A stretch of 64,000 bases of DNA from Owenia fusiformis (Eukaryota; Annelida; Polychaeta; Sabellida; Oweniidae). The translations under genes were made by a program, and so were the position numbers. Below the pieces are notes generated by a model that made no database searches, had not been told where the DNA came from, and saw only the letters and a list, made by a program, of their open reading frames with translations. Location of the stretch: positions 36,304,166-36,368,165 of the forward strand of contig CAIIXF020000011.1 of the NCBI GenBank assembly GCA_903813345.2. Direction: 5' to 3'. Shown here one piece after another: positions 29,841 through 48,241 of this stretch (position 1 is its first letter; each line of letters begins with the position of its first letter).

Positions 29841-32015
29841 GTAAAGCAAATCAACAGTTATACAATGGGAACTGGGCTTATATGGTGGAGTGGTTTCAGT
29901 GGAATTATAAAGCAATCAACAGTAATACAATGGGAACTGGGCTTATATGGTGGAGTGGTTTCAATGGAATTATAAAGCAAATCAACAGTATTACAATGGG
30001 AACTGGGCTTATATGGTGGAGTAGTTTCAGTGGTATTGTAAAGCAAATCAACAGTACATGTATTACAATGGGAACTGGGCTTATATGGTGGAGTAGTTTC
30101 AGTGGTATTGTAAAGCAAATCAACAGTAATACAATGGGAACTGGGCTTATATGGTGGAGTGGTTTCAGTGGTATTGTAAAGCAAATGAACAGTAATACAA
30201 TGGGAACTGGGCTTATATGCTGGAGTGGTTTCAGTGGTATTGTAAAGCAAATCAACAGTAATACAATGGGAACTGGGCTTATATGGTGGAATGGTTTCAG
30301 TGGTATTGTAAAGCAAATCAACAGTTATACAATAGGAACTGGGCTTATATGGTGGAGTGGTTTCAGTGGTATTGTAAAGCAAATCAACAGTAATACAATG
30401 GGAACAAGGCTTATATGGCGGAATGGTTTCAGTGGTATTGTAAAGCAAATCAACATTAATACAATAGGAACTGGGCTTATATGGTGGAGTGGTTTCAGTG
30501 GTATTGTGAAGCAAATCAACATTAATACAATAGGAACTGGGCTTATATGGTGGAGTGGTTTCAGTGGTATTGTAAAGCAAATCAACAGTAATACAATGAG
30601 AACTGGGCTTATATGGTGGAATGGTTTCAGTGGTATTGTAAAGCAAATCAACAGTTATACAATAGGAACTGGGCTTATATGGTGGAGTGGTTTCAGTGGT
30701 ATTGTAAAGCAAATCAACAGTAATACAATGGGAACAAGGCTTATATGGTGGAATGGTTTCAGTGGTATTGTAAAGCAAATCAACATTAATACAATAGGAA
30801 CTGGGCTTATATGGTGGAGTGGTTTCAGTGGTATTGTGAAGCAAATCAACATTAATACAATGGGAACTGGGCTTATATGGTGGAGTGGTTTCAGTGGTGT
30901 TGTAAAGCAAATCAACAGTAATACAATGAGAACTGGGCTTATATGGTGGAGTGGTTTCAGTGGTATTGTAAAGCAAATCAACAGTAATACAATGGGAACT
31001 GGGCTTATATGGTGGAGTGGTTTCAGTGGTATTGTAAAGCAAATCAACAGTAATACAATGGGAACTGGGCTTATATGGTGGAGTGGTTTCAGTGGTATTG
31101 TAAAGCAAATCAACAGTAATACAATGGGAACTGGGCTTATATGGTGGAGTGGTTTCAGTGCTATTGTAAAGCAAATCAACAGTAATACAATGGGCACTGG
31201 GCTTATATGGTGGAGTGGTTGCAGTGGCTGTAAAGCAAATCAACAGTAATACAATGGAAACTGGGCTTATATGGTGGAATGGTTTCAGTGGTATTGTAAA
31301 GCAAATCAACATTATAACAATGGGAACTGGGCTTATATGGTGGAGTGGTTTCAGTGGTATTGTAAAGCAAATCAACAGTAATACAATGGGAACATGGCTT
31401 ATATGGTGGAGTGGTTTCAGTGGTATTGTAAAGCAAATCAACAGTAATACAATGGGAACTGGGCTTATATGCTGGAGTGGTTTCAGTGGTATTGTAAAGC
31501 AAATCAACATTATAACAATGGGAACTGGGCTTATATGGTGGAGTGGTTTCAGTGGTATTGTAAAGCAAATCAATAGTAATACAATGGGAACTGGGCTTAT
31601 ATGCTGGAGTGGTTTCAGTGGTATTGTAAAGCAAATCAACATTATAACAATGGGAACTGGGCTTATATGGTGGAGTAGTTTCAGTGGTATTGTAAAGCAA
31701 ATCAACAGTAATACAATGGGAACTGGGCTTATATGGTGGAGTGGTTTCAGTGGTATTGTAAAGCAAATCAACAGTAATACAATGGGAACTGGGCTTATAT
31801 GCTGGAGTGGTTTCAGTGGTATTGTAAAGCAAATCAACAGTAATACAATGGGAACTAGGCTTATATGGTGGAGTGGTTGCAGTGGCTGTAAAGCAAATCA
31901 ACAGTAATACAATGGGAACTGGGCTTATAATATATAGTGGAATGGTTTCAGTGGTATTGTAAAGCAAATCAACAATAATACAATGGGAACTAGGCTTATA
32001 TGGTGGAGAGGTTTT
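29841..32015. repeat. 66-bp minisatellite, ~33 copies, abutting the HEI10 start
   Basis: The unit runs AATCAACAGTAATACAATGG, GAACTGGGCTTATATGGTGG, AGTGGTTTCAGTGGTATTGT, AAAGCA (66 bp). The array starts 15 nt from the HEI10 ATG, right at the inferred 5' UTR splice acceptor. As 66 is a multiple of three, frames stay open for up to 659 codons on the minus strand and 474 on the plus; opening on both strands marks them as artefacts. Most units read TTTACAAT on the gene strand where the gene has TTTACAG; two units (about 31226 and 31886) keep TTTACAG. Confidence 0.9.
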
Positions 32016-34055: not shown

Positions 34056-35945
34056 CAGTTGGGGACATAAATAAATGACAGGTGGATTTGCTGAAGTAGT
34101 ATGTATCCAACAGACCGAATATAATATTCGGTCTGTTATGATTGATATATTTCCTGTGGAAATCGCGGTGATATTTTTTGCACATTAATTTCTCGTTTAT
34201 TATAAGAATGTTCACCTTGAAAATTGGTGAATATGTAGTCATATAAATCCGACCATCGTATGCTTTATTTGTCATTATTTTTTGATAATTTGGATATTTA
34301 TTTTTTGTTATTTTCTTGCATACTAGGGTCGTACACACTTCCCGGTTGTAAATTGAGGGAAATGCTTTCCTGGCCTGTTTAGGCAACCAAAATCACACAA
34401 ATTATGTATTAGAATATGCTCTTCATCGATAATGTATTTAATCCTACCTTACACACGTCAAACGCTTGATAATTGAAGAAGTATAAGAATTTTTCTGGAA
34501 AAATTTTTTTCCCCCATGTGTAGATGCATTCTGGGTAATGATTGTGTAAAAGTAAAACTCTAGGTGAAGCGAAAAACGAAATTACAATAAATAACAGCAG
34601 CCATATTGAGATCGAGATTTCAACTCGAAAGTTTATCATCGTCTTATGACAATTGAATCGCCTTCTCAGACACCAAGGAGGGTGAAGAAACCGAAAACAG
34701 ATATGTTGGTAATAAATAATTACGATTTCGTTTTGGTTGCATGGTTTCACATTTAGACAGTATTCAGTGACCTTGAGTGACCTTGAGAACCATATTGGAA
34801 ATTGGTTCAAACATATACGAAAATGATTACATTTCTTCAATTATCAAGTATTTCCTGTGTTTAAGGTAAGAGTTAATACATTCTAGTTGAAGCATTGGAT
34901 CCATTATCTTATCTGTGTAACTTTTGTTGAGCATAGAGGGCAGAAAAGCATTTACCGCAATATACAGGGCTTAATATCCTCGACGCAAATGTTGAAAACA
35001 AAAATAAAAAACAAATATCCAAATCGTCAAAAAGAAACGTGAAACAACAACATTAAGTCGAGTTCACTTGACTAGTGAATATGTTGAAGAGATGTTCATC
35101 TTAAACTAGAAGCAAAAATATTTGTATAAGGCGGGTACAAGTTGATATAAAATAATGAAATGTTCAGACTCACCGAAACTTCAGGATGTGTTCATAAGTA
35201 GATCGCGAAATCAATGTCAAGGACGTTTGAGTTCACGAGATCCAAACGAGATATGCAAATTTTGAACTTTGACAACACATGACCACTTGATTACCTCGGC
35301 CTTCTTCATGAATATTTCCGCTCTATTTACTATAAATGAAGAAAATTAATCGGGATAATGATAATAAATGACTAGATCTAATAAATTCCCGCACAAATGG
35401 AATTTAGCAATACGCTTCCGTAATGTTGCTCCCGCTCCACGTGTTATTTGTTCACAAATAGACTGACGTCACTGGCTAAATCTCGTTTATCGTGAGAATT
35501 GGCATTGCCAAAATGGCTTGACCTAATCAATGGCTTCGCTACAAGAAGCGTCTGTACATTCTATGAATATCTTCAGTAAGAGGACAATATACGAAAAAAT
35601 AATATTGTGAGTTCTTTATAAGGTAATCATTCTATCATTAAACAAACTTATTTGTAACATTTATACAACACCACATTTTACAATAGGTGACTTACAGTCT
35701 GAATATTTATTCAGACGAAGGATACAGTCTATTTGCTGAAGTGAGGATTTCCCATGTTAAAAATAAGAGAATTTACAAGAGGCCATCAATCAGTGGATGC
35801 GATTATACAAAATGTAAAATATACAAATTTTAAGGGATATGTATCTAGACAATATTGGAAATTATGGGCTTTCAGACCACCATAATTAGGAAATGGTGAT
35901 CGAAAATCGACCTGTCATTTATTTTTGTCCCCAACTTTTTTTTTG
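34056..35945. mobile_element. Tc1-like MITE split by the 12-bp-TSD element
   Basis: TA flanks (34054-34055, 35946-35947) and inverted ends sharing AGTTGGGGACA, AAATAAATGACAGGT. Without the inserted element the MITE would be about 245 bp. The end sequence is typical of Tc1/mariner non-autonomous elements; no transposase. Confidence 0.7.
34098..35730. mobile_element. transposon with 12-bp target duplication, long copy (1633 bp)
   Basis: Flanked by ATTTGCTGAAGT at 34086-34097 and 35731-35742. Ends are AGTATGTATCCAACAGACCG and the complement of AGACTGTATCCTTCGTCTGA, i.e. imperfect ~23-bp inverted repeats. Just inside each end is a palindrome: ACAGACCGAATA with its complement at 34109-34136, and GTCTGAATATTTATTCAGAC at 35697-35716. 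Compared with the short copy at 37083 it has an extra 848 bp (34236-35083) bounded by GTGAATATG on both sides. Frames inside (34033-34386, 34409-34840, minus) match nothing I recognise. Confidence 0.8.
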
Positions 35946-35947
35946 TA

Positions 35948-37070
35948 GAGTCAATACGTCCAAATCCAAACAGGGGGGTAAACATGAACGGGTTCCAAAT
36001 AATGGCAAGCAGATCATTGAATTGAATAATAGTACCTCTACTACCTCTACATAATATTTATAGCCTGAAAGATACAATATAATGATGTATACCAACAATC
36101 TTACAATAAAATAATCAATTATGATGATTTAGGTGTTCGGAATTACCCCCATGCTAGTGTTTGGAATTACCCCCACAAACTCTGTGCGTTTAAATAAATA
36201 GATTTCAGTAATAAATGATTTAAATTTGGGTTTCTTGATATGCAGGGGTGACAGGATCAAGTATCATAAGTTAAGGGTATCATATAATGATATACCATCA
36301 ATCTAATAATTAAAACAATTAAGTTTAAGTTAAGTGTTTGGAATTACCCCCATGCAAGTGTACGGCAAATACCCCCCCAAAAAACTCCTGTTCGGAATTA
36401 CCCCCCTAAAATACCTTGTAGTAAAAATGGAATAACCCAGATATTTTTTACAATTTTTCGTAATTTTTTCTGCAAATGCATTCTACAGTGGATAATACTT
36501 ACTCGAGTCTTTAGCTTACAGCTAGACGAAACTTCATTGATTTCGTATGTACTGTGCTACACGCACCTAGAACTCATTTTTAATAAATTTTATAAATATT
36601 TTTAAGAATATTAATCATATTTAGGATGAAGCGTTGCTTGTCTGGATTTAGATATTTCAAAATTTCATTTCGGAGTTTTGACACATGGTGAAATCTTCTC
36701 GCTGTAGCTAAAAATGGCTTCCGGTTCTGGACGTGAATAACATTTGAAATTATTCTCGCTTAAAGAAATCAAATATAACAATAGATTCAGACGGGGATGT
36801 GAGCTGATGTTCTTCAAATATATACATAAAGGTATATTTCATATTATTATGCCATATTTACTGTGCGTGTGACACAATGATTTACAATATTTATAATACT
36901 AAGGCAGCTCAATCTTCCTCCTCAAAGCCGGAATATAGAGAAGGCTTTGGACCGAAGTAAGATAATACACATAATATATATAGAATCATAGCATAGATGT
37001 GCAGTACAGCCAAGCTAACTACATTTTTTGATGGGGGTGTTTGGAAATAGACGTACTGACTCTAGATCTT
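35948..37070. other. no gene; short dispersed GGAATTACCCCC motifs
   Basis: GTGTTTGGAATTACCCCCAT and close variants occur four times between 36130 and 36410. Otherwise unremarkable AT-rich sequence. Confidence 0.4.
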
Positions 37071-37082
37071 AGGGGTTGTACT

Positions 37083-37868
37083 AGTATGTATCCAACAGAC
37101 CGAATATAATATTCGGTCTGTTATGATTGATATATTTCCTGTGGAAATCGCGGTGATATTTTTTGCACATTAATTTTTCGTTTATTATAAGAATGTTCAC
37201 CTTGAAAATTGGTGAATATGTTGAAGAGATGTTCATCTTAAACTAGAAGCAAAAATATTTGTATAAGGCACAAGTTGATATAAAATAATGAAATGTTCAG
37301 ACTCACCAAAACTTCAGGATGTGTTCATAAGTAGATCGTGAAATCAATGTCAAGGACGTTTTTGAGTTCACGAGATCCAAACGAGATATGCAAATTTTGA
37401 ACTTTGACAACACATGACCACTTGATTACCTCGGCCTTCTTCATGAATATTTCCGCTCTATTTACTATAAATGAAGAAAATTAATCGGGATAATGATAAT
37501 AAATGACTAGATCTAATAAATTCCCGCACAAATGGAATTTAGCAATACGCTTCCGTAATGTTGCTCCGTCCGCTCCACGTGTTATTTGTTTACAAATAGA
37601 CTGACGTCACTGGCTAAATCTCGTTTATCGTGAGAATTGGCATTGCCAAAATGGCTTGACCTAATCAATGGCTTCGCTACAAGAAGCGTCTGTACATTTT
37701 ATGGATATCTTCAGTAAGAGGACAATATATAAATAAATAATATTGTAAGTTCTTTATAAGGTAATCATTTTATCATTAAACAAACTTATTTGTAACATTT
37801 ATACAACACCACATTTTACAATAGGTGACTTACAGTCTGAATATTTATTCAGACGAAGGATACAGTCT
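37083..37868. mobile_element. transposon with 12-bp target duplication, short copy (786 bp)
   Basis: Flanked by AGGGGTTGTACT at 37071-37082 and 37869-37880, again exactly 12 bp. Ends and inner palindromes are the same as in the long copy. It equals that copy minus 848 bp, with one GTGAATATG left at the junction, as expected for a deletion between 9-bp direct repeats. The pre-insertion site can be reconstructed because it lies in the terminal repeat of another element whose opposite end (about 39270-39303) is uninterrupted. Confidence 0.85.
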
Positions 37869-38226
37869 AGGGGTTGTACTAAGTACCACCTACAGTCATT
37901 TTTTTTAATTCTGGGAATCAGTTCATATGGTCAAAATAACAAAAGAATGTGATGTAACCACGTGTCTACTTACCGGCTTGTTCTATGTCATCCATCGGAC
38001 TAGGTTACATCGTGGAACGCAGCCAATGAAGCCAGTATTCTGAGGTTATAAAATCTAAATCTAAATAATTTCCCATTTGTAGCCCCTTGGAGATTTCCGG
38101 AATTGAACAAAGTAGCGAACGTTGCGATCTTTCAACTTTAGTTCGTTGTTTTTCACCACTTTATGTGTAGTGTTTTCATTTAAGTGGGCGGTCTTATTTG
38201 AATGCATCATTTCAGGTCTGTATGAA

Positions 38227-38424: not shown

Positions 38425-39305
38425 ATCATTGAGTCACATGATCGATACAGTAACTAGTCACGTGATCAGACACGTGTCACGTGTCAGTCACGTGAGCTTG
38501 CAAAATGGACGATCTAAATTTCCAAAGATTTGGCTAAGATCAAGATTGATAAGCTGTTGCCTTCAGTGTCCTGTTTGGCTGCGTTCCACAATGTAACCTA
38601 GTCCGATGGATGACATAGAACAAGCCGGTAAGTAGACACGTGGTTACATCACATTCTTTCGTTATTTTAACCATATGAACTGATTCCCAGAATAAAAAAA
38701 ATGACTGTAGGTGCCCCTAGGTGCCCCACATCTAGGTGTCCCCATTGAAATGCCTTATTGGCATATTTTACTACTTTATTTTAAACTAACATTTTTCCAA
38801 GTGTTAATAAGGTACAAAATAAAGTATTTTCATGGAGCTTGTGTAAATATTTCTGTTTGGTTAAGATATTTTTAATTTCTTAAAAAATTTTGATCGATGT
38901 CGAAAAGTCATTTGTTAGGATAATATTTCATAATTTGCTCACTATAAAATGCTACAAATTCACTATTTTAGCAACTAAAGTAAGACCAATGTATATATTT
39001 CAAATGTAAATGCACACTTTAGCATAAACAGTGTTTTATTACTACAAATAAGTGACCATACATGAGCAAAATTCCAGGTGCCCATTTTTCTAACAATAAA
39101 ACTTTGAACATTTTATTTTCGAATCTTCTTTGCAATATTCTCGACTACAAATTATTATTTCAAGCCTATTAATGTCAAGTTAATATGACAAAGGAAATAC
39201 TACTATATTTAAAATGTGTACGTGGTTTAAAATGAAATTAGAAATCCAGGTGCCCAAGGGGACACCTAGGTGGTATTTAGTAACACCCGATCTTAGACTA
39301 AGATT

Positions 39306-41713
39306 TTCTCCATCTAAAATGTCACTCGACTTTTTGTTATTATGAGTCAAAGAAAGCATTCTTGAGTTTCAAATTGACTTCTGTGGTAACTTGAAACCAT
39401 CTTCTAATTTATTCCACTTACCTTTTATTGTTTCTCCAAATATATTCTTTGAAAATCGGATTTTAAGGGTGTTAATCAGGGTAATTCTGTGCCATTTTAA
39501 CAAGAATCTTGTTGCTGTCTAGAAACGAGCAATTGTGATCTTGTTGTTACCTAGGAACGAGCAACTGTGATGTCACGTCACACTCATGTTGTTGTTGTGT
39601 TGCATAAGCCGCTTTTTCCTCGGCAGTTAGTCTCTTGTGCTTTTTTCTTGTATTTTCACTATGTACTTTCTCTTGTACTTTATTCACTTGTTGCGCAGAT
39701 TTTCAAAGTGTTATTCATTATTCATATTTACATTCATATTATTTCATTCATATTATTTTTGCCGTCTTGTAATTTGAATCTTATTGAAAATAACATGGCT
39801 GAAATTCTTCAAATTACAAGAAGGCACAGGCTTATTGTACATCAAACTAAAAAATCTGAAATATACAAATGTCATTCATGTACATTATGAATATACTTTT
39901 CCATATATTATTGCACAATGGTCTCCCAATTTCTTATTTTTGCCGTTCTACTGACGAAATGAAGCAGTGAAATGGACTCTAGGATATATCCTCTCGTCTG
40001 AAATTTTTTGAAATTTGGAATGAAAATATTCAGACTACTGACCTGTCAACCCTCACGCATTAGGCGTGATTGTCACGCATTTGCTGAAAAAATAGAAATC
40101 ACGCATCAATTTAGGGTGTATGATCAAATATCACGCAAGTCATGCATTTTGTTGATATTTTTAAAAATCATTTTTTGTGAAATGCCGACACGGTAAAAAA
40201 CCGAACGGCGAAAAAAAGCGAACGCATTCCGTTTGGTCTTTGCACGCGATTGCCGTTTATGTCACCCATTTGGTACAAAATATCTGTATATATCACGCAT
40301 TTGTTTCGAAAATATTTATTTGCATTACTTCCCCTAGCTTTATTTCTATTTGACAATATGTTGTGTTACTTTTTATAACATTTAATTTTACTACTTAATT
40401 GAATTGTTACAATGCTTATTTTTTGGAAGTGAAGTTTCCTAAAATTGATAATTGTGTGCAGGAAATTTCCTGTTCTTCCCACAGGAGAGACATAATGATC
40501 AATAGACTGAATTCTCAGGAATTTCAGTCTATTGGATATAGACTAGAGTCTATAGCCCGGCTTACTCTACCGAGCTGACAGAAGTCAGCTCTGGGAAGTT
40601 GGATCGAAAATCCTTGAAGAGGAAAAATTGAGCCCATTTTGAATAAACGTGCTGAGTAGCGTTTATAACACACTATATATTTGAATCAATACATAATTTA
40701 TTTGTTGTTACCTTATTTTGATCCTTCAACAGTCTGTTGTTGTAGTAAATCAATGTTCTATCAGACAACAAAACTTTTGAATTTGGATTGCAGCCATTTT
40801 AGGTCTCGCGAGATCTCTTGACTTTCGAAAGTTAAGATTTGCTACAAAATAACTCGCGTTAGCTAAATATGAATAGTCACGTGATCCTTTAGCGGCGATG
40901 CCCATGCACCTGTAAAGTATAATGCACATGTGCCCACATGCGCAAAAAGTTAAAAATGGTGCGAACCAGATCTGGAATTTCTCCAATTTAACTGCAAATT
41001 ACACAACAAGTAGGACTTATTGTCACCACGCGTCATGAAAAGGGCAAGTTAAATTCAATTATCTATAAGTTAACTTATTCCAGCGCGCCTGCTGGAAGTT
41101 GGAGTAAACCACTTCACAACACGGTATATTTGAACGGTCTGTCAGCTGGCTTTTCAGCCAGCTGTGTTCAGTAAAGCCCGGCTTACTACAGTAAAATTTT
41201 AAATGATTAGAACTGAGATAATAAGCAATCAAAGGACCATATTGAAACAGTATATGTAAAAATAGAAACATTTACACATATCCTAACGTTTGTATATTTT
41301 AGTTTGTTTTGTAGTTTAGTTATCATATCTGTTAGAGGTGTCACGTTTTCCCGATGTTGGACCGAATTTTGGTCCAGATGCTTCGGTTCGGGACACGGGA
41401 CAGAAAGGGTTAATATCGGTTTGGTATCGGTATATAAATTCCTTTCCTAAAATGCATTAAACGTGTATAAATAGCGAGGAACATCTCCGATTTCGTTCTG
41501 AAAAATAAAATTACATGTAAATATTATCACATACCTCTTTGTAAGGTATTAAGATGTAATAGTGTGAGATGTTTGGATTTACTTTCATAATTAGATTGGT
41601 TTAAAGTTAGTGAGTGAATGAATGGATTATTCAGTAATACATGAATGGGTTGATTTCAGGTTGATGATAATGCTTGTTCGTAAATTTCTTCATTGTCGTT
41701 CGCAAATCGAGTG
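39306..41713. other. dispersed repeats, no gene
   Basis: Contains AACATGGCTGAAATTCTTC (39793) with a diverged relative at 42670; a cluster of TCACGCAT motifs (40050-40300); small hairpins AGCTGACAGAAGTCAGCT (about 40574) and AGCTGGCTTTTCAGCCAGCT (about 41144), the latter shortly before AGCCCGGCTTACT (41176), which also occurs at 40555; and a lone TTAGAGGTGTCAC end at 41333. The 107-codon frame at 39567 has no recognised motif. Confidence 0.4.
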
Positions 41714-45761: not shown

Positions 45762-46186
45762 GGCCAGGGTAATTAAATTAGTTGTTTCTCTTTCTTCTAA
45801 TTTTCAAAATTGATATGGGAATGACGGTTTTCATATTACCTTTTTTGTCTATCTAAAATGCTGATGAGGGACGGGATGATTTTTTTCTTTAAAATAACTG
45901 TAAAAACAAATAACTGATTTTGAAGGAAATAAACTGAGTTTATGTTGAATTTATATGTTGAATTTAGCCTACTTTACTGGTATACATGTACATGTATTTG
46001 ATCATATATCAGTACCACGATATTGTCAATTATCCTGATCCATAAAAAGTAAAAAAAAGTGTTTCACACGCCATGGATGCGCGCGAGGTACGGTGTTTTT
46101 TCTCAGAAATGGCAGAAAATAAGTGGAGGGGGAATTGGGCCACACACGGGCAAGAATGAGAAACACCTAATTTAATTACCCTAACC
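45762..46186. mobile_element. TTA-flanked MITE (425 bp), Harbinger-like
   Basis: TTA at 45759-45761 and 46187-46189. Inverted ends share GGGTAATTAAATTAG followed by TGTTTCTC. A 3-bp TTA/TAA duplication and G-starting ends fit PIF/Harbinger-type MITEs; no coding region. Confidence 0.65.
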
Positions 46187-46424
46187 TTAGTTCATCCAGT
46201 AGTACGTTTTTACTGCAAAGTAGTGTTTTTATATGCAGCTTTATAGCATAAAATATGTTGAATGAAGCATATGGTGTGGATTAGTCGTGTGACACACAAA
46301 CTGACCAATACATGAGGGTATTAGCTACTTTTCACATAAACCAAAGGAGGACAATGCTTTTATTTCAACTGGGAGCTTACCTCCACACGACTGATCATGT
46401 GACCATGGTGGTGGTCCCCTTTAA

Positions 46425-48241
46425 GATAGGACTAGTAGATTGCATATCTGGCCCTTTTGTCTTTAAGGTAGGAGTAGTAGGCTGAAAATCTGGCCCTTTT
46501 GTCTTTAGGTAGAAGTAGTAGGTGGAAAACCTGTTTCCTTTGTCTTTAGGTAGGACTAGTAGGTTGAAAATCTGGCTATTTTGTCTTTAAGATAGGACTA
46601 GTAGATTGCATATCTGGCCCTTTTGTCTTTAAGGTAGGAGTAGTAGGCTGAAAATCTGTCCCTTTTGTCTTTAGGTAGAAGTAGTAGGTGGAAAACCTGT
46701 TTCCTTTGTCTTTAGGTAGGACTAGTAGGTTGAAAATCTGGCTATTTTGTCTTTAGGATAGGACTAGTAGATTGCATATCTGGCCGTTTTGTCTTTAAGG
46801 TAGGAGTAGTAGGCTGAAAATCTGGCCCTTTTGTCTTTAGGTAGAAGTAGTAGGTAGAAAACCTGTTTCTATTGTCTTTAAGTTTGGAGTGGTAGATTGA
46901 AAATCTGGCCCTTTTGTCTTTAAGGTAGGACTAGTAGGTTGAAAATCTGGCCCTTTTGTCTTTAAGGTAGGACGGGTTGAAAATCTGGCTCTTTTGTCTT
47001 TAAGTTTGGAGTGGTAGGTTGAAAATCTGTCTCTTTTGTCTTTAAGGTAGGAAGAGTAGGTTGAAAATCTGGCTTTTTTGTCTTTAAGGTAGGACAAGTA
47101 GGTTGAAAATCTGGCTCTTTTGTCTTTAAGGTAGGACAAGAAGTTGAAAATCTGGCTTTTTTGTCTTTAAGATAGGACTAGTAGGTTGAAAATCTGGCTC
47201 TTTTGTCTTTAAGTTTGGAGTGGTAGGTTGAGAATCTGACTCTTTTGTCTTTAAGGTAGAAGTAGTAGGTTGAAAACCTGTTTCCTTTGTCTTTAAGGTA
47301 GGACTAGTAGGTTGAAAATCTGTCTCTTTTGTCTTTAAGGTAGGACATGTAGGTTGAAAATCTGGCTCTTTTGTCTTTAAGTTTGGAGTGGTAGGTTGAA
47401 AATCTGGCTCTTTTGTCTTTAAGTTTGGAGTGGTAGGTTGTAAATCTGGCCCTTTTGTCTTTAAGGTAGGATGAGTAGGTTGAAAATCTGGCTCTTTTGT
47501 CTTTAAGTTTGGAGTGGTAGGTTGAAAATCTGTCTCTTTTGTCTTTAAGGTAGGAAGAGTACGTTGAAAATCTGGCTCCTTTGTCTTTAAGTTTGGAGTG
47601 GTAGGTTGTAAATCTGGCCCTTTTGTCTTTAAGGTAGGAGTAGTAGGTTGAAAACCTGACTCCTTTGTCTTTAAGTTTGGAGTGGTAGGTTGTAAATCTG
47701 GCCCTTTTGTCTTTAAGGTAGGATGAGTAGGTTGAAAATCTGGCTCTTTTGTCTTTAAGTTTGGAGTGGTAGGTTGAAAATCTGGCTCTTTTGTCTTTAA
47801 GGTAGGAAGAGTAGGTTGAAAATCTGGCTTTTTTGTCTTTAAGGTAGGACAAGTAGTTTGAAAATCTGGCTCTTTTGTCTTTAAGGTAGGACAAGAAGTT
47901 GAAAATCTGGCTTTTTTGTCTTTAAGATAGGACTAGTAGGCTGAAAATCTGGCTCTTTTGTCTTTAAGTTTGGAGTGGTAGGTTGAGAATCTGGCTCTTT
48001 TGTCTTTAAGGTAGAAGTAGTAGGTTGAAAACCTGTTTCCTTTGTCTTTAAGGTAGGACTAGTAGGTTGAAAATCTGTCTCTTTTGTCTTTAAGGTAGGA
48101 CTAGTAGGATGAAAATCTGGCTCTTTTGTCTTTAAGTTTGGAGTGGTAGGTTGAAAATCTGGCTCTTTTGTCTTTAAGGTAGGAGTAGTAGGTTGAAAAC
48201 CTGGCTCCTTTGTCTTTAAGGTAGGACTAGTAGGTTGAAAA
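46425..48241. repeat. 42-bp minisatellite, ~43 copies, upstream of DPY19L3
   Basis: The unit is GTAGGTTGAAAATCTGGCTC, TTTTGTCTTTAAGGTAGGAC, TA. A variant with AAGTTTGGAGTGGTAGG instead of AAGGTAGGACTAGTAGG is interspersed, forming irregular higher-order blocks; 46430-46860 shows a ~166-bp four-unit period. Unit length 42 is a multiple of three, giving minus-strand frames of 100 and 196 codons that are artefacts. The array ends about 500 bp before the DPY19L3 start. Confidence 0.9.

Follow-up and report, generated by a model that had tools for sequence, protein, structure and literature searches.

A transposon of Owenia fusiformis with a 10-bp target duplication and subterminal palindromes probably represents a young, high-copy, non-coding MITE family

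The analysed window, a stretch of 64,000 nucleotides, contains two copies of one element, each lying between perfect direct repeats that differ in sequence from copy to copy, and each carrying a self-complementary sequence inside both ends. These features, recognized in the preliminary description of this DNA, were borne out. The locus raises the question of what kind of transposon this is, and whether its direct repeats represent a duplication of fixed length, which had been put at 12 bp. We searched the assembly (498 Mb in about 12 large contigs, 34% GC; contig 1 makes up one eighth of the genome). The element very probably belongs to a young, high-copy, non-coding MITE family, with a TAG...CTA unit; palindromes lie inside both ends, and the target site duplication (TSD) is fixed at 10 bp.

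The two copies had been delimited as 34098–35730 and 37083–37868. In nearly all of the 30 full-length copies fetched from the genome, a T directly precedes and an A directly follows the corresponding limits. Because the other copies share both bases, the unit of this family (family 1) starts with T and ends with A, and the earlier limits were one base short on each side. The unit reads TAGTATGTATCC...GGATACAGTCTA, with TAG...CTA tips. Its terminal inverted repeat is imperfect and about 12 bp long (TAGTATGTATCC versus TAGACTGTATCC, 10 of 12 positions matching), instead of the ~23 bp originally proposed. The features of the two copies are as follows.

34087–34096: left TSD of copy 1, TTTGCTGAAG, 10 bp
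34097–35731, + strand: copy 1 of family 1, 1635 bp, split by a nested 839-bp element; ends TAGTATGTATCC / GGATACAGTCTA
34109–34137, + strand: 5' subterminal palindrome of copy 1, AACAGACCGAATATAATATTCGGTCTGTT, 29 nt
34236–35074: nested non-autonomous element of another family, 839 bp, TAGTCA...TGACTA, with long imperfect inverted repeats; flanks GTGAATATG
35697–35716, + strand: 3' subterminal palindrome of copy 1, GTCTGAATATTTATTCAGAC
35732–35741: right TSD of copy 1, TTTGCTGAAG
37072–37081: left TSD of copy 2, GGGGTTGTAC, 10 bp
37082–37869, + strand: copy 2 of family 1, complete, 788 bp
37094–37122, + strand: 5' subterminal palindrome of copy 2; DNA fold −12.9 kcal/mol, z −7.3
37835–37854, + strand: 3' subterminal palindrome of copy 2; DNA fold −6.3 kcal/mol, z −4.4
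37870–37879: right TSD of copy 2, GGGGTTGTAC

Removal of the nested element and one copy of its 9-bp TSD (GTGAATATG) leaves 787 bp of copy 1, and the empty site of this insertion is visible in copy 2. The nested element has at least about 40 near-identical copies (97–100%) in the genome, and probably more. For copy 2 itself, the uninterrupted site was confirmed as the single-copy form AAGATCGGGTGTTACTAAATACCACC in the opposite arm of the host element. This host element also contains two 127-nt inverted repeats (37900–38026 and 38575–38701), which are 97% complementary and 548 nt apart. GC skew is strong at 30001–32000 (+0.42) and 46001–48000 (+0.32), clearly higher than elsewhere in the window. 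Another family-1 copy, L068 (3988 bp), carries ~3.2 kb of inserted DNA with many tandem CGTCAAATAGCGCCCCTCC repeats. This insert has an apparent 8-bp TSD (TTGGTGAA) and lies near the position where the 839-bp element entered copy 1. Copy 2 contains only short open reading frames (the longest below 60 aa in the ORF listing), and both window copies are without coding capacity, in agreement with the earlier report that no transposase was recognizable.

Duplication length was tabulated for 46 copies, nearly all from families 1 and 2 (788 and 357 bp), a check that had been proposed for 20 or more copies. In the TAG...CTA frame, the TSD was exactly 10 bp in 36 of the 46 copies and had at most one mismatch in 39. 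The earlier frame yielded a 12-bp repeat in only three of the 46, both window copies among them. Inspection of the 39 copies showed A before the TSD in 12 and T after it in 13, which is about the base frequency, and both together in three. The 12-bp appearance arose by chance, because flanking A and T bases match the tips of the element at about this frequency. A 12-bp duplication was thereby ruled out. Other copies lacking it had been named as grounds for rejecting the claim, and they do overturn the number; the claimed constancy of length stands at 10 bp.

Individual copies depart from this pattern. L016 has a 9-bp TSD, L008 sits in a run of G, the duplication of L011 is shifted by one base, and L013 and L051 have no recognizable TSD. 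In L069 and L056, six extra bases lie between the element and a 10-bp TSD (with one mismatch in L056), and the outer tip is again TAG or CTA. These two copies resemble what enzyme cleavage at a neighbouring TAG would produce.

The genome search gave at least about 40 full-length matches to family 1. The 21-nt 5' end of families 1 and 2 had 645 matches with at most one mismatch, and the 3' end common to families 1, 2 and 3 had 734, with none for the reversed control in either case. With families 1 and 2 excluded, the TAGTMTRTATCCNND pattern had 465 matches versus 220 for its control. The copies are young, their mean divergence from the consensus being 0.8%. At least three related non-coding families exist (approximately 788, 357 and 370 bp), together with miniatures of 47–69 bp, and TAG...CTA tips, a palindrome inside each end and 10-bp TSDs are common to the families. 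Between family 2 (~357 bp) and family 1, identity is 82% in the first 87 bp and 80% in the last 60 bp; family 3 (~370 bp) has the ends TAGTCTATATCC / GGATATAGTCTA. Among the shortest copies, L056 is a family-2 copy of 49 bp, and L073 is a family-3 copy of 47 bp with a perfect 10-bp TSD, GAGTGTGGGA on both sides. Several 5'/3' end pairs of family 1 on contig 1 (C1) enclose just 51–69 bp.

C1:2236091–2236146: family-1 miniature
C1:8374456–8374523: family-1 miniature
C1:30684271–30684339: family-1 miniature
C1:33105122–33105177: family-1 miniature
C1:39436815–39436878: family-1 miniature
C1:40011742–40011795: family-1 miniature
C1:44270102–44270152: family-1 miniature
C1:44271346–44271396: family-1 miniature

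Family 3 is also represented in the window.

39980–40545, − strand: family-3 member with TAGTCTATATCCAATAGACTGA ... ends, 566 bp, no matching duplication

The flanks of this member, GGACTC and GAGTC, are inverted and not direct. Its flank GAGTCCATTTCACTG also occurs at L071, which suggests that the two share a host repeat or that the ends of some members are longer. At two further loci (G000:C1:22235533–22236112 and C1:42033754–42034315), the 3' tip of family 2 and the 5' tip of family 3 are separated by ~550 bp. The arrangement is the same at both loci, possibly reflecting a composite unit that moved.

The targets of these elements are GC-rich and weakly palindromic. The 10-bp targets have 60% GC versus 39% in their flanks (Wilcoxon p = 4.5e-7), and TSD self-complementarity is 0.33 versus 0.24 ± 0.03 after shuffling, a value reached in 4 of 2000 shuffles. 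Elements of families 1 and 2 occur side by side. The order at L011 is GGGGTTCGGG – family 2 – GGGGTTCGGG – family 1 – GGGGTTCGGG. The duplication of one element thus probably served as the target for the other.

The subterminal palindromes were compared across the families. AACAGACCGAATATAATATTCGGTCTGTT is found in both window copies, and these are the only perfect palindromes with 13-bp arms (loop of 1, 3 or 5) among the matches listed for the 64-kb window outside its N run. The 5' end folds into a 12–13 bp stem in families 1 (z −7.3) and 2 (z −5.7); the stem of family 3 has a single bulge (z −5.2). At the 3' end, the stem is 8–10 bp in families 1 (z −4.4) and 2 (z −4.0), and the family-3 palindrome, as seen in the sequence, is GTCTGAA...TTCAGAC with a long loop. 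For the 5' stems, the 11 outermost pairs were aligned by eye across the three families. In the order of families 1, 2 and 3, pair 3 is C-G, C-G and T-A, pair 8 is C-G, T-A and T-A, and pair 11 is A-T, C-G and A-T. This amounts to three compensatory pair changes and no broken pair; from three families only, short of a formal test, the pattern is suggestive. One family-3 copy (L070) has a mismatch within the stem. The outer 41 and 35 bases of family 1 diverge from the consensus by 0.08% and 0.19%, versus 0.84% in the middle, a difference due in part to sample selection, as the copies were chosen by full-length match. Such constraint would be explained equally by protein-binding sites with symmetry (CAGAC/GTCTG) and by extruded hairpins.

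No transposase gene was found between family ends among the paired ends examined on contig 1; TAGNNTRTATCC would be the end sequence for pairing ends across the genome. The contig-1 pairs of 3988 and 3345 bp are ordinary copies with unrelated inserts, and those of 1402, 1174 and 1700 bp, judged from their middles, appear to be ordinary copies with inserts as well. In a 1160-bp family-2-type pair on this contig, the 501 bp read contained no family sequence. Two of the ~14 unpaired 5' ends on contig 1 were read and are ordinary, L074 having a mutated 3' tip and L075 being truncated. Family 3 has no end pair longer than 1000 bp on contig 1. A pattern search without the known continuation, for copies departing from families 1 and 2 just past the ends, returned only degraded or interrupted ones.

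Candidate transposase genes were also approached directly. Ten PF10551 loci of ~10 kb each were inspected for a MULE partner, and none has TAGTATGTATCC-like ends on both sides within ~5 kb. Three of the genome's MULEs (L044, L046 and L042) have intact frames of 599–617 aa, with a FLYWCH domain shown in L044; their foldback ends consist of tandem CTAGTCAACTCGGACC-like repeats, and their TSD is about 8 bp. The P transposase profile PF21787 gave 13 matches, and two of these, on contig 2, lie far from the 5' ends among the matches listed. A genome profile search for DUF6589 revealed five genes with open frames of 1952–2641 aa.

C1:55249787: DUF6589 gene
C3:26995943: DUF6589 gene
C5:17848263: DUF6589 gene
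C11:14708020: DUF6589 gene
C11:19954101: DUF6589 gene

No family ends lie near the contig-1 gene, the sole one on that contig. A 393-aa piece of a DUF6589 protein was read, and a PDB search with part of the protein gave nothing significant. None of the Helicase_C matches coincides with a DUF6589 gene, and the searches for P-type transposase and Helicase_C showed no link to these ends. Helicase_C was found in uninterrupted frames at G000:C12:29035415 (3104 aa) and C12:1664126 (2559 aa), which are perhaps large helicase-bearing transposons.

With these results in hand, we attempted to assign the family to a superfamily. The earlier reading as a non-autonomous transposon whose duplication is fixed and unusually long holds, apart from the figure of 12 bp. 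The statement that the duplication exceeds those of the well-known superfamilies was too strong: TSDs are given as 4–10 bp for MuDR/IS256 and, in a remark on Kojima 2020, as 9 or 10 bp for AcademH and 3 or 4 bp for AcademX (PMC10045372). The title of Kojima 2020, as cited there, places AcademH in animals and fungi. Our literature search for a superfamily with a 10-bp TSD yielded mainly MULE work and this one AcademH remark. Among described lineages AcademH fits best because of the TSD length (10 bp, and 9 bp in the nested element), and the leading assignment, tentative and unproven as it is, is a non-autonomous member of AcademH that an Academ transposase would move. The nested TAG...CTA element would fit the same lineage, and the five DUF6589 genes might encode such transposases. 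DUF6589 itself we take, as a guess, to be an Academ-like DDE transposase, but none of its genes coincides with Helicase_C. The likeness to AcademH is one of TSD length, and no transposase, helicase or other coding copy was found between the ends examined. A divergent, non-autonomous MULE (Mutator superfamily) appears unlikely. MULE duplications are 8–11 bp, a range that includes the 10 bp found here, and complex subterminal repeats have been reported for MULEs. FLYWCH-type MULEs with intact frames are present in this genome, but the best of them have unrelated foldback ends (GGTTCC.../...GGATACC-like) and 8-bp duplications, and an end pair like that of family 1 surrounds none of the ten loci. 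A fixed 10 bp without a spread to 8–9 bp is also atypical of MULEs.

An undescribed DDE lineage with hairpins in its ends and a stagger of 10 bp is a rather doubtful alternative, to which several of the above results point. The MULE genes checked do not match, no such ends lie near the P genes accessible to checking, and nothing in the literature searched combines TAG...CTA tips and a fixed 10-bp TSD with compensating palindromes. On the other side, this lack of a match reflects an end-to-end survey of one eighth of the genome and gene searches for MULE, P-type, DUF6589 and Helicase_C domains. The fuller form of this proposal, in which the lineage combines the 10-bp stagger and TAG...CTA tips with obligatory compensated palindromes and derivatives of ~50 bp, we consider improbable. 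IS481EU elements of parabasalids also make long duplications, but these are ~4, 15 or 25 bp with TNT..AYA ends (PMC10045372), as opposed to a fixed 10 bp and TAG...CTA. The stable hairpins near each end could recall transfer as single-stranded DNA, in which a Helitron- or IS200-like HUH enzyme would recognize the hairpins. Helitrons and IS200/IS605 are not known to make target duplications or to have terminal inverted repeats. Both are present here, with the TSD fixed at 10 bp, and this reading is very improbable. P elements make 7–8 bp duplications, and hAT elements make 8-bp duplications and conserve a G as the fifth base of the inverted repeat. The 10-bp TSD fits neither, and the fifth base here is A or C.

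The MITE reading describes the family itself. Like MITEs, the elements are short, non-coding and high-copy, with terminal inverted repeats and target duplications; unlike MITEs in general, they have a 10-bp TSD, end palindromes with compensated stems, and copies down to 47–69 bp. We infer cut-and-paste rather than replicative movement. In the mechanism we propose, a DDE-type transposase acting in trans would bind the ends, with the palindromes serving as paired CAGAC/GTCTG binding sites or as extruded hairpins. The enzyme would cut at the TAG/CTA tips and join the ends to the two strands of a GC-rich target at positions staggered by 10 bp, and gap filling would then create the duplication.

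To our knowledge, few described eukaryotic superfamilies duplicate a fixed length close to one helical turn, and a duplication of this size constrains how the transposase holds its target. If the palindromes are needed for movement, the hundreds of young copies, the compensating stems of the sister families and the ~50-bp copies, which are little more than ends, would together map the smallest unit that can move. With the ends and TSD corrected, the hunt for the missing coding element becomes possible.
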